Shown in pieces: positions 26,716 through 30,234 of a stretch of DNA of 64,000 nucleotides. This stretch comes from Pseudomonas sp. LB-090624 (GTDB taxonomy: Bacteria; Pseudomonadota; Gammaproteobacteria; Pseudomonadales; Pseudomonadaceae). Numbering within the stretch: the stretch's first letter is position 1; every line of letters starts with the position of its first letter. Under the pieces are notes generated by a model that was not told the DNA's origin, did no database searches, and saw nothing but the letters and a program-made list of their open reading frames with translations. Both the position numbers and the translations under genes were made by a program. Location of the stretch: assembly GCF_003205205.1 (NCBI RefSeq), contig NZ_QJRL01000001.1:1-64000 (forward strand), in the 5' to 3' direction.

Positions 26716-27693
26716 GTGCAGACGCCTATTCCCGTAACCGTACTCACAGGCTTCCTTGGCGCTGGCAAGACCACCTTGCTCAAGCACATGCTCAAGGCCG
26801 AGCACGGCCTGAAACTGGCCGTGATCGAAAACGAATTCAGCGAAGCCGGCATCGACAGCCAGCTGCTGGGTGACCAGCCGGTGCAGGTAATGACTCTGGC
26901 CAACGGCTGCGTGTGCTGCAGCATCCACGGTGACCTGACCCGCGCCCTGTACCTGCTGCTCGAGCGCCTGGATGCTGGTGAAATCGCCTTCGACCGCCTG
27001 GTGATCGAATGCACTGGGCTGGCCGACCCGGCGCCGGTGGCACAAACCTTTTTCATCGACGAGGAGCTGCGTGATCGCTATATCCTCGATGGCATCATCA
27101 CGTTGGTCGATGCCATGCATGCCGAGTTGCACCTGACCCAAACCATTGCCCAGGCCCAGGTCGGCTTTGCTGACCGCCTGCTGCTGAGCAAGACCGACCT
27201 GGTCGAGCCGGCTGCTGTCGAGGCCCTGCGCGAACGCTTGGCCCGCATCAATGGCCGGGCGGCTATCCGTGTCGTTGAACACGGCTGCATCGATCTGGCA
27301 GAACTACTGGATGTGCGCGGTTTCAACCTCAACCCGGATCTGGGCGCAAACCTGAAACCCCAGCTGCGCCCGGTGCTCAAGCCCGCGACCCCGGACCGTA
27401 TCGGCACCATGGTGCTGCGCACGGAAACCGCCCTGGACATCGACCGCCTCAGCAGCTTCATGAACGAGCTGCTGGAAACCCACGGCAAACAGCTGCTGCG
27501 CTACAAGGGTGTGCTGAACATTGCCGGCGAGGAGCGCAAGCTGGTGTTCCAGGGGGTGCTCAAGCTCTACGGTTTTGACTGGGACGCCGAGTGGGCCGAA
27601 GGTGAAACCCGCGAAAGCGTGATGGTATTCATTGCCGATGACCTGCCCGAGGCTAAGATTCAGGCTGGGTTCGAGGCGCTGGCTGCGGACTGA
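26716..27693 (+). CDS. yjiA: CobW/COG0523-family zinc-binding GTPase (YjiA)
   Basis: The 325-residue P-loop GTPase has Walker A GFLGAGKTTLLKHML (residues about 12-26), the metal-binding CxCC motif in NGCVCCSIHGDL (about 66-77), ECTGLADPAP, and a C-terminal CobW_C domain (LLRYKGVLNIAGEERKLVFQGV). The family delivers zinc or other metals to client proteins. The GTG at 26716 is chosen because CAGGAGA lies 8 bp before it, whereas the ATG at 26707 overlaps the ribosome site. It is linked to cstA-ybdD, as in E. coli yjiY-yjiX-yjiA, but a strong terminator intervenes. Its 3' end overlaps the convergent metF-like gene by 41 bp. Confidence 0.92.
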   Translation: MQTPIPVTVLTGFLGAGKTTLLKHMLKAEHGLKLAVIENEFSEAGIDSQLLGDQPVQVMTLANGCVCCSIHGDLTRALYLLLERLDAGEIAFDRLVIECTGLADPAPVAQTFFIDEELRDRYILDGIITLVDAMHAELHLTQTIAQAQVGFADRLLLSKTDLVEPAAVEALRERLARINGRAAIRVVEHGCIDLAELLDVRGFNLNPDLGANLKPQLRPVLKPATPDRIGTMVLRTETALDIDRLSSFMNELLETHGKQLLRYKGVLNIAGEERKLVFQGVLKLYGFDWDAEWAEGETRESVMVFIADDLPEAKIQAGFEALAAD

Positions 27694-29140
27694 CCCGGCG
27701 CGGGGTTTGCGCGGCGAACCATTGCGGCCATGAGCTGCGGTGGCGGGTCTCCACCTCGATGCACGGGATCAGCCGCTCGGTCAGGACGGCGGTTTGCCCC
27801 ACGGCCTTGGCGGTGCGGTACTTGATGCTGTGGATGCACTCGCGGTCGCCAAACTCGCAGCGGTTCAGCGCGGTACCTCCGCAAGGGCCATTGGCCAGGC
27901 CCTTGGGGCAGGTTTCCGGGCAGATATACAGGGTGTCTTCCAGGCGGCAGTGGCCGCAGGTATCACACCCTGCCAACGGGCGCTTCACGCTGCGCTCCAG
28001 TGTGTGCAGCACGTGTGCGCCAACCCGGGTAGCCCACACTGGCTGGCGCACCGCCCAGCCGAACGCCTTGCTCAGGCTGTTGCGGCGGCTGAACAGCAGT
28101 GCATGCATGCCATGCATCAGGTGATAACGGGTTTTCTCCTTGAAGGAGGCATCGACCCGTGATTCGCCGTCGCGCCAGTTCGCCTGGGGCGGATGGAAGG
28201 TTACCGCCGGCAGGCCGGGCATCTGCCAGCTGGCATGCCAGGCGGGTGCCCATTGTTCCAGCGTGTGAACCTGCGCTTGCCAGTGCTCAAGCCGCTCCTC
28301 CAGGGCAAGCAGTTGTTGCAGCCCGTGGATACCTGACAGGTGCACACCGGCGTAGCCCATCAGTTTCGTGCCAATGATCTGCAAGGCCAGGCGGTCAACG
28401 CTGCGCGCCAGGGCAAAGGCCTTGGACTGCGCCGTTTCTGCTTCGAGCATTTCGCGCATGGAGGGTGTCACGGTAACGCCAGCCACGTGGTCGAGCATTG
28501 CCGCTCGGCCGTGGGTCAGGCTCATGAGGCAGGCCAGCATGGGCCTGGGCGCGGCCTGGCGGCGCATCCAGTGCATGGCTTCCTGGTGCTTTGCAGCGTC
28601 GAAGCCCAGTTGCAGGGTGAGGAAGTCAGCCCCTGCAGCCAGCTTTTTCTCGGCCTTGAAGTATTGCGCGCCGCCTTCTTCCTCGTGGTACTTGAACGGG
28701 TTCAGCGCCGCGCCCAGCAACCAGTGTGGGCAGGCCTGGCGGGCAATCTGCAGGGCCGCCACCGACTCCAGATAGCGCACGGGGCGCTGGCCAGGCTCAT
28801 GCCCTGGCAGGCGATCGCCGGTCAGCAGCAACAACTGGTCGAGGCCGGCGGCGTCCATGTGTTGCAGTTGCGCGAGCAAGTGATGGCGTTCGCGGTCCTT
28901 GCCGGAAAAATGCGGCAGCGCAGGCACGGGGGTGTCGAACGAGGCGAGGGCGTCCAGCGGCGACATGTCCAGCGGGCTACCGACGCGGTCGCCGATGGCC
29001 ACGGTCATTGGCCAGCCGCACAGGTGCCCGCGGGCCATGATCGCTTGCATGGCGGTGAAGCGTTCTGCGGAGGCTTTGGGGACGAACTCCATGACACAGA
29101 CGAAGTTCTGTTCGCGCAGCGCGGTTTTCAGCAGGCTCAT
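27653..29140 (-). CDS. methylenetetrahydrofolate reductase fused to MTHFR_C cysteine-rich domain
   Basis: This 495-residue protein has an N-terminal MetF-like TIM barrel (about 1-300; VCVMEFVPKASAERF, LLLLTGDRLPG, AGADFLTLQLGFD) and a C-terminal cysteine cluster of the MTHFR_C type: CDTCGHCRLEDTLYICPETC, then CPKG, NGPCGG and a Cys in NRCEFGD. It could reduce methylene-THF to methyl-THF or run the reverse reaction; the cluster probably binds zinc or an Fe-S centre. Plain MetF is about 280-300 residues, so this is a distinct paralogue. The ATG at 29140 has AGGTG upstream; a GTG at 29152 is possible. It is divergent from a MetE-like gene across a tandem operator-like element. Confidence 0.88.
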   Translation of the reverse strand: MSLLKTALREQNFVCVMEFVPKASAERFTAMQAIMARGHLCGWPMTVAIGDRVGSPLDMSPLDALASFDTPVPALPHFSGKDRERHHLLAQLQHMDAAGLDQLLLLTGDRLPGHEPGQRPVRYLESVAALQIARQACPHWLLGAALNPFKYHEEEGGAQYFKAEKKLAAGADFLTLQLGFDAAKHQEAMHWMRRQAAPRPMLACLMSLTHGRAAMLDHVAGVTVTPSMREMLEAETAQSKAFALARSVDRLALQIIGTKLMGYAGVHLSGIHGLQQLLALEERLEHWQAQVHTLEQWAPAWHASWQMPGLPAVTFHPPQANWRDGESRVDASFKEKTRYHLMHGMHALLFSRRNSLSKAFGWAVRQPVWATRVGAHVLHTLERSVKRPLAGCDTCGHCRLEDTLYICPETCPKGLANGPCGGTALNRCEFGDRECIHSIKYRTAKAVGQTAVLTERLIPCIEVETRHRSSWPQWFAAQTPRRVSPQPAPRTQPES

Positions 29141-29319: not shown

Positions 29320-29352
29320 TGAGTTCATCTCAAATTTTATGAGTTTGTCTCA
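29320..29352. promoter_or_regulatory. tandem TGAG-N5-CTCA palindromes between metF-like and metE-like genes
   Basis: Two copies of TGAG-N5-CTCA occur at 29320-29332 (TTCAT centre) and 29340-29352 (TTTGT centre), 20 bp apart, so nearly two helical turns on the same face. A further half-site TGAG is at 29309. The layout resembles the MetR (LysR) site TGAA-N5-TTCA with G/C in place of A/T. It is 58 bp before the MetE-like start and 180 bp before the MetF-like start. MetR binding is inference. Confidence 0.55.
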
Positions 29353-29409
29353 ATCCCTCATCAGCCGGACAATCCTTTCATTATTTCGAGCATGCTGAAG
29401 GGACAAGAC

Positions 29410-30234
29410 ATGGCACTGGCACATAACCTGGGCTTTCCACGTATTAGCGGTGACCGCGAGCTGCGGGCCCGCCACTGGCAAGTGCAGAAAGACGCCGGTA
29501 TCCATTTGCTGCCAGTTGGCGACTTCGCCCAGAACGACCACGTGCTGATTACAGGCGACCAGCCGTTCGCCCTGGACTGGGAGCCATTGTTCGAAGAAGT
29601 GGAACACGCCAAGGCCCTGGGCCATGCGGTCAAGCCGGTGATTATCGGCCCATTGACCTACCTGTGGCAGGCCCAGGCCCTGGGCGGTGACTTCGACAGG
29701 CTGGAGCTGCTCGAGCGCCTTTTGCCGTTATATGACGAGGTCCTCAATCGCCTGGCTGCCCAGGGCGTTGAATGGGTGCAGATCGACGAACCGATCCTCG
29801 CCCGGGAGCTGCCGCAAGACTGGAAGAATGCCTTTGAGCGCGTCTACAACATCCTTCAGCGCGCACCGTTGAAGAAGCTGATCGCGACCTATTCGGGTGG
29901 CCTCGATGGCAACCTGGGCCTGGCCGCCAACCTACCGGTCGATGGCCTTCACATTGATCTGGTGCAGGCACCTGAGCAGTATCAGAGCATTCTCGACCGT
30001 TTGCCTGCTTACAAGGTGCTGTCGCTGGGCCTGGTCGACGGCCGCGATGCCTCGCCGTGCGACCTGGACAAGATGCTGGGGCTGTTGCATGAGGCCGACG
30101 AGCGCCTGGGTGAGCGGCTGTGGTTGGCGCCGGCCTGTTCGTTGCTGGAAAGCCCGCTGGACCTCGCTGTGCAGAAGTGCCAGGAAGTGGTGATGCTGGC
30201 CGCTTCGCTCGGGCAGTACCGCGCTGCGGCTTGA
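29410..30234 (+). CDS. MetE N-terminal-domain-like protein, internally shortened
   Basis: The 274-residue protein aligns only with the N-terminal half of cobalamin-independent methionine synthase. Against E. coli MetE from memory, three in-frame gaps are apparent: about 27 residues after LGFPRI (joined to RELRARHW), about 60 after DHVLITG, and about 17 between SPLDLAV and QKCQE. Conserved blocks remain (LLPVGDF, WVQIDEP, GLHIDLV, CSLLESP). The whole C-terminal catalytic half with the zinc ligands is missing, so it cannot be a complete MetE. Gaps in frame and intact codon usage argue for a maintained gene of unknown role rather than decay. The ATG at 29410 has AAGGGA upstream; 29392 is an alternative. 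Confidence 0.8.
   Translation: MALAHNLGFPRISGDRELRARHWQVQKDAGIHLLPVGDFAQNDHVLITGDQPFALDWEPLFEEVEHAKALGHAVKPVIIGPLTYLWQAQALGGDFDRLELLERLLPLYDEVLNRLAAQGVEWVQIDEPILARELPQDWKNAFERVYNILQRAPLKKLIATYSGGLDGNLGLAANLPVDGLHIDLVQAPEQYQSILDRLPAYKVLSLGLVDGRDASPCDLDKMLGLLHEADERLGERLWLAPACSLLESPLDLAVQKCQEVVMLAASLGQYRAAA

Follow-up and report, generated by a model that had tools for sequence, protein, structure and literature searches.

The 64,000-nucleotide window analyzed here (Pseudomonas sp. LB-090624, contig NZ_QJRL01000001.1, positions 1 to 64,000) contains at 29410..30234 a gene for the N-terminal half of the methionine synthase MetE, without the catalytic half. We lean toward the view that this gene is a non-catalytic MetE remnant held under purifying selection, whose product is predicted to be a bare barrel and likely serves as a binding protein induced by MetR. 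The basis for this view is a full-length MetE at the syntenic position in relatives, shared in-frame deletions, the ratio of nonsynonymous to synonymous divergence (omega), the sequence of an operator, the loss of a folate-contacting Lys, and the release of the active-site face from constraint. The features of the gene are:

29410..30234, forward strand: N-only MetE remnant with a Meth_synt_1 domain and no catalytic half (from the 274-residue open reading frame, profile scores, omega and a structural model)
29460..29461, forward strand: junction of deletion 1, after residue 17 (24 residues, connection of strand 1 to helix 1)
29550..29551, forward strand: junction of deletion 2, after residue 47 (59 residues, long hairpin between strand 2 and helix 2, with the folate-contacting Lys)
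30165..30166, forward strand: junction of deletion 3, after residue 252 (16 residues, connection of strand 8 to helix 8)
29815..29886, forward strand: residues 136-159, comprising helix 4, its loop and strand 5; variability in N-only forms rises least in this sector (from the model and amino acid diversity)

A MetE gene without its catalytic half

The product scores 191.9 bits against the Meth_synt_1 profile (PF08267), for which the gathering cut-off is 27, and thus belongs to that domain family; this score and the alignment with full-length MetE bear out the original prediction, made from the letters of the window, of an N-terminal MetE half lacking the catalytic half. The scores against the equivalog families of full-length MetE fall well short, with 179.8 of 929.95 bits for TIGR01371 and 212.7 of 541 bits for NF003556, and the C-terminal zinc/homocysteine barrel is absent, the frame stopping at 30234. 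The catalytic-barrel profile PF01717 gives only 30.5 bits and the frame matches the N-terminal barrel, so the protein is not a core methionine synthase of the MesA-D kind. Nor does the locus encode a split MetE, whose separate catalytic subunit is nearly always encoded next to it, as the downstream genes, named from reading their frames, are a thiolase and then FabV, with no adjoining catalytic subunit. A search of the genome did not find a second MetE N-terminal half, and MesD was the sole other protein with the catalytic domain. The start at 29410 (MALAHNLGFPR) is common to relatives, and an in-frame ATG at 29392 would yield 280 residues; in four N-only relatives (L166, L167, L171 and L172) the frame extends open upstream and offers other possible in-frame starts.

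Relative to a full-length MetE of Pseudomonas (L045; E. coli MetE, L245, was also aligned), the product has lost 24, 59 and 16 residues in frame in addition to the whole catalytic half. Three in-frame gaps had been predicted and are present; the sizes then given for them were about 27, 60 and 17 residues. The exact point of the first deletion is ambiguous, and because its junction lies between two flanking R-E-L repeats, slippage or short-repeat recombination is suggested as the cause. This gap had been thought to remove an Arg/Lys-rich segment; the Lys of R-E-L-K is gone, but the Arg is still present. A folate contact is more clearly lost with the second gap, which takes out the Lys equivalent to K117 of E. 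coli and Lys104 of T. maritima. A passage of the MetE structure paper describes K117 of E. coli as a pterin/folate contact contributed by the N-barrel (PMC539065), and in our alignment the equivalent Lys is missing from 21 of 21 N-only forms that adjoin a divergent MetF-like gene. The zinc and homocysteine sites of MetE sit in the lost half. Two of these 21 forms (L186 and L218) bear a Cys at the site of the Tyr that, in MetE N-barrels, took the place of a zinc ligand; two in 21 makes no pattern, and we rejected a revival of the zinc site.

Relatives share the same gene order, namely CstA, CobW, the MetF-like gene on the reverse strand, MetE on the forward strand and, where the contig reaches it, the thiolase. 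Full-length MetE of about 760-770 residues occupies the syntenic spot in L007, L009, L011 and L045, and because relatives have full-length MetE at this locus, the window gene is, as judged from synteny, its truncated descendant. A search of other Pseudomonas for the shortened form, as the original prediction had proposed, found it in the seven nearest genomes examined (L166-L172), with gaps at the same places and, in four, a few more residues deleted; this recurrence argues that the truncation is not due to chance.

Across the genus, 398 genomes were searched with each half, a half being counted as present at E < 1e-50 (the weakest N-half match listed was 4.6e-51; these counts and those for MesX were tallied by hand from listings). 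Both halves were present in 305 genomes, not necessarily as one intact gene, the N-half only in 50, the C-half only in three and neither in 40. The three C-only assemblies are fragmented (330, 880 and 280 contigs), and weaker C-half matches in 59 genomes (1e-20 to 1e-27) were taken for MesD, as confirmed in the window genome alone. The MetF-like gene occurs in 63 of the 398 genomes, the window included, and alongside it MetE is full-length at 26 loci, N-only at 21 (266-380 residues) and not found at 16, one of which is a contig edge (L211). Two of the 26 full-length genes have a broken frame (L173 and L215); together with L071, they carry a frameshift or stop and are possible early steps to loss.

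The N-only gene itself was read in 30 of the 50 N-only genomes: the 21 that adjoin the MetF-like gene, and nine from genomes without it, seven of which are divergent from a LysR-type gene. Reduction goes furthest in L228-L233 (223-253 residues), which have lost much of both the pre-core part and the tail. One N-only MetE of 370 residues (L236) groups with full-length MetE of another branch, and its neighbors resemble, by eye, cystathionine beta-synthase and gamma-lyase. The MetF-like tree requires the N-only label to change at least seven times; on the MetE trees, well supported branches require at least two changes (47 rows) or at least three (82 rows, including N-only genes from elsewhere), the latter being a quick tree with support from the Shimodaira-Hasegawa-like approximate likelihood ratio test (SH-aLRT) only and every third extra full-length row, in which long N-only branches meet. 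Provided that a half once lost stays lost, at least three separate truncations follow from these trees.

Selection on the retained barrel

Omega was estimated by the Nei-Gojobori method with a codon bootstrap rather than a likelihood test, and further N-only genes (such as L005, L006, L008, L010, L048, L061, L056 and L073) were left out. For the window clade, the eight genomes that share the truncation, omega is 0.23 (95% interval 0.18-0.29) with open frames (core 0.15, remainder 0.32), and because all eight have gaps at the same places, their divergence most likely postdates the truncation. For comparison, omega is 0.09 in the N-half of eight full-length sister genes. Five other N-only sets have omega of 0.11-0.35, with synonymous divergence (dS) ranging from 0.23 to 1.09, and the reduced forms give 0.11 (L229/L230) and 0.20 (L231-L233); in five of the six N-only sets, constraint is stronger in the core than outside it. 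Compared in pairs, omega is 0.15-0.39 for 19 N-only pairs and 0.03-0.09 for nine full-length pairs, and in the same N-only pairs it is 0.06-0.22 for the MetF-like protein and 0.02-0.08 for CobW where compared. All 30 N-only frames read are open across the core. A strict pseudogene is ruled out by the open frame and the omega of the window clade, and the earlier proposal of a retained role rather than decay gains from the values in all sets, the open frames and the kept promoter. Values near 1, or degraded copies in close relatives, had been named beforehand as signs of a pseudogene: omega does not approach 1 and the frames of the N-only genes read are open, but several relatives have no MetE at the locus.

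An AlphaFold model of the product (predicted local distance difference test, pLDDT, 83.8; predicted template modeling score, pTM, 0.84; only residues 40-52 have pLDDT under 50) predicts an intact, bare (beta-alpha)8 TIM barrel with eight strands and eight helices, and places the three gaps at three extended loops on the face that meets the catalytic barrel. The model of a minimal form (L229, 223 residues; pLDDT 70.1, pTM 0.68, six strands) is only fair, and no conclusion rests on it.

Per-site amino acid diversity over residues 55-249 was compared between 25 full-length and 21 N-only genes at the same type of locus, with face classes taken from the model and permutations that treat sites as independent. 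Overall diversity rises 3.7-fold, from 0.069 in full-length to 0.254 in N-only forms. The rise on the active-site face is ninefold (0.041 to 0.373), which was matched in none of 5000 permutations; helices go from 0.105 to 0.275 and strands from 0.055 to 0.115. Helix 4 changes from 0.06 to 0.09, its loop from 0 to 0.04 and strand 5 from 0.11 to 0.05, and the effect at helix 4 relative to other helices and bottom loops was reached in 41 of 5000 permutations (p 0.008).

A putative MetR operator

29320..29332, forward strand: first of two palindromes, TGAGTTCATCTCA, a likely operator for MetR that is retained upstream of metE in both its N-only and full-length forms
29340..29352, forward strand: second palindrome, TGAGTTTGTCTCA, 20 bp downstream of the first, also between metR and N-only metE elsewhere

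The window has a single instance of the tandem TGAG-N5-CTCA pattern, which none of 100 shuffles contains. At 20 of the 21 N-only loci and 25 of the 26 full-length ones, at least one TGA[AG]-N5-[CT]TCA site is found within 360 bp of the start of the MetF-like gene, and at the two loci lacking it there the site precedes a displaced metE instead; among the 16 loci without MetE it is absent from 15, and one has a different match. TGAGTTTGTCTCA stands upstream of all nine N-only genes read elsewhere, the copy in L236 differing by one base. The family that best matches the LysR-type neighbor in L229 is MetR (304.7 of 382 bits, under the equivalog cut-off), the other six such neighbors are 92-98% identical to the one in L229, and the same metR-metE arrangement is found in E. 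coli. From these sites and neighbors we infer that MetR regulates the window gene through the putative operator. Leyn and others give metE, PF08908 (mesX)-metE2 and a metF2 of Pseudomonadaceae as predicted MetR targets (PMC4239095). A TGAATCATCTTCA palindrome upstream of mesX-mesD in the window's own genome (contig C22, L003 335-347) is possibly a further MetR site.

Possible role and rival explanations

Because the window genome has MetH (1768.6 bits) and MesX plus MesD, its methionine synthesis should need no MetE. MesX occurs in 29 of the 50 N-only genomes and in 24 of the 305 that carry both halves; of the 43 others, 33 have it. MesD/MesX tends to accompany the loss of MetE and leaves the retention of the N-half unexplained. 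We propose that a full-length MetE was stripped of its catalytic half and of three loop extensions, and that the N-barrel would have been retained for a non-catalytic function already resident in it, with the helix 4-strand 5 sector and the barrel bottom as the presumed surface for binding a partner and MetR as the probable driver of expression. Our guess is that full-length Pseudomonas MetE already had a second role, for which the N-barrel may have been kept where MetH or MesD/MesX made MetE catalysis dispensable. A more specific version, which we consider unlikely, would give Pseudomonas MetE two jobs, with a regulatory binding surface of the N-barrel (helix 4, bottom of strands 5-7) taking part in the response to homocysteine, its likeliest target being MetR or MetH, and would have the enzyme whittled to a dedicated regulator whenever MetH or MesD/MesX takes over catalysis.

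The main rival, in our judgment somewhat unlikely, is slow erosion, in which a jobless remnant, whose expressed protein is under no constraint beyond avoiding misfolding, loses residues through in-frame deletions until the gene disappears. Several observations weigh against the non-catalytic remnant with a role, most of them in favor of such erosion. The lengths of the 30 genes read are spread over 223-384 residues, omega is two to four times that of full-length MetE, and in the L181/182/184/188 set the core is no more constrained than the rest (0.24 versus 0.20 outside). The gene is dispensable, as 16 of 63 MetF-like loci have no adjoining MetE (one at a contig end), some of them in close relatives, and both halves are missing from 40 of 398 genomes. 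The barrel bottom is the least variable class (0.021 to 0.082), yet its rise is 3.9-fold against the average of 3.7, and selection for the fold only would spare the bottom and strands, explaining part of the diversity pattern. The MetE and MetF-like trees conflict on the L196/202/218/219/222 group, and because of this disagreement and the long branches that meet, the number of origins may be obscured by horizontal transfer or artefact. No partner, phenotype or expression datum was found for N-only MetE. Titles and abstract openings from a literature search on truncated MetE gave no description of this N-only family, and the portions seen of PMC13059711, PMC12478193 and PMC7950407 gave no clue to its role. 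Slow erosion is nevertheless hard to square with omega of 0.11-0.35 at dS of 0.23-1.09, open frames and a conserved promoter, given that silencing a useless gene would, we reason, cost nothing; nor does it account for 50 N-only against three C-only genomes. The helix 4 sector fits fold-only selection less easily, as helix 4 and its loop rose less than the other helices and bottom loops.

The remaining explanations are much weaker than a retained non-catalytic role. We give very little credence to a split methionine synthase, in which the N-barrel would pair with a separate catalytic barrel, for example that of MesD, docking in trans to present methyl-folate. A split MetE is known from archaea, as a passage of PMC7857596 relates, and the window genome has MesD and MesX, as do 29 of 50 N-only genomes for MesX; MesX is, however, missing from the other 21, MesD and MesX rescue E. 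coli lacking metE or metF with no N-barrel added (PMC7857596), and the loop extensions and folate-contacting Lys are deleted while the face toward the catalytic barrel is unconstrained. On the absence of MesX, the rescue and the unconstrained face, we rejected it. Retention of the stretch for a DNA or RNA element is scarcely credible; the operator and surrounding bases are conserved, but in the window clade dS is 0.52 in the core versus 0.49 elsewhere, amino acids are kept, and this candidate was rejected for want of synonymous constraint. Equally improbable as the split enzyme is a dedicated partnership with the MetF-like protein:

27653..29134, reverse strand: divergent MetF-like protein (MTHFR and DUF5981), a neighbor and not an obligate partner

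This gene, with a weak MTHFR match and a DUF5981 tail, is without internal stop in 60 of 63 cases and often has no adjoining MetE. It lies adjacent to and divergent from N-only metE at 21 of 63 MetF-like loci, and the predicted MetR target metF2 of Pseudomonadaceae (PMC4239095), not equated here with this MetF-like gene, would suit a partnership; but the MetF-like gene is present in 23 and absent from 27 of the 50 N-only genomes, the 16 loci noted above keep it without an adjoining MetE, and seven of the nine N-only genes read elsewhere adjoin metR instead. The folate- or homocysteine-binding partner of the original prediction is thus also unlikely, because the K117 Lys is lost in 21 of 21 forms, the zinc and homocysteine sites went with the lost half, and the MetF-like protein is often absent; neither folate binding nor this partnership was kept as the leading explanation. 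The P. putida pair PP_4638/PP_4637, which we take to be the MetF-like and N-only MetE genes, was sought in the literature for a fitness clue; PP_4638 alone was covered, and PP_4637 turned up only in unrelated work. PP_4638 had no significant fitness phenotype, according to an excerpt of PMC7857596.

Among known systems, the window protein resembles MetE (TIGR01371) in its N-terminal barrel, direct descent, locus in relatives and operator, and differs from it in lacking the catalytic barrel, the zinc ligands, the three loop extensions and the folate-contacting Lys. As in the archaeal split MetE (PF1268/PF1269 type, in the excerpt of PMC7857596), Meth_synt_1 forms a separate protein, but the window gene has no adjacent catalytic partner, with MesD only elsewhere, and its loop extensions are deleted. 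MesA-MesD and core-MetE are likewise single MetE-superfamily barrels, although those are the catalytic half and the window protein is the other. Pseudoenzymes are enzyme-derived proteins retained for binding or regulation; the window protein is like them in its lost catalysis, predicted fold and ongoing selection, and unlike them in keeping half of a double-barrel enzyme, apparently several times, under the old operator. A passage of the MetE structure paper asked why the second barrel was recruited, its own binding sites being mostly disabled (PMC539065). Evolution appears to have dissected MetE in Pseudomonas, discarding catalysis and keeping the N-barrel, apparently several times, with the facing side freed from selection; if the N-only barrel has a job, MetE would have a hidden function in this genus. 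Several short N-only proteins are deposited as homocysteine methyltransferases, an activity not expected of them, and such labels would mislead metabolic models.
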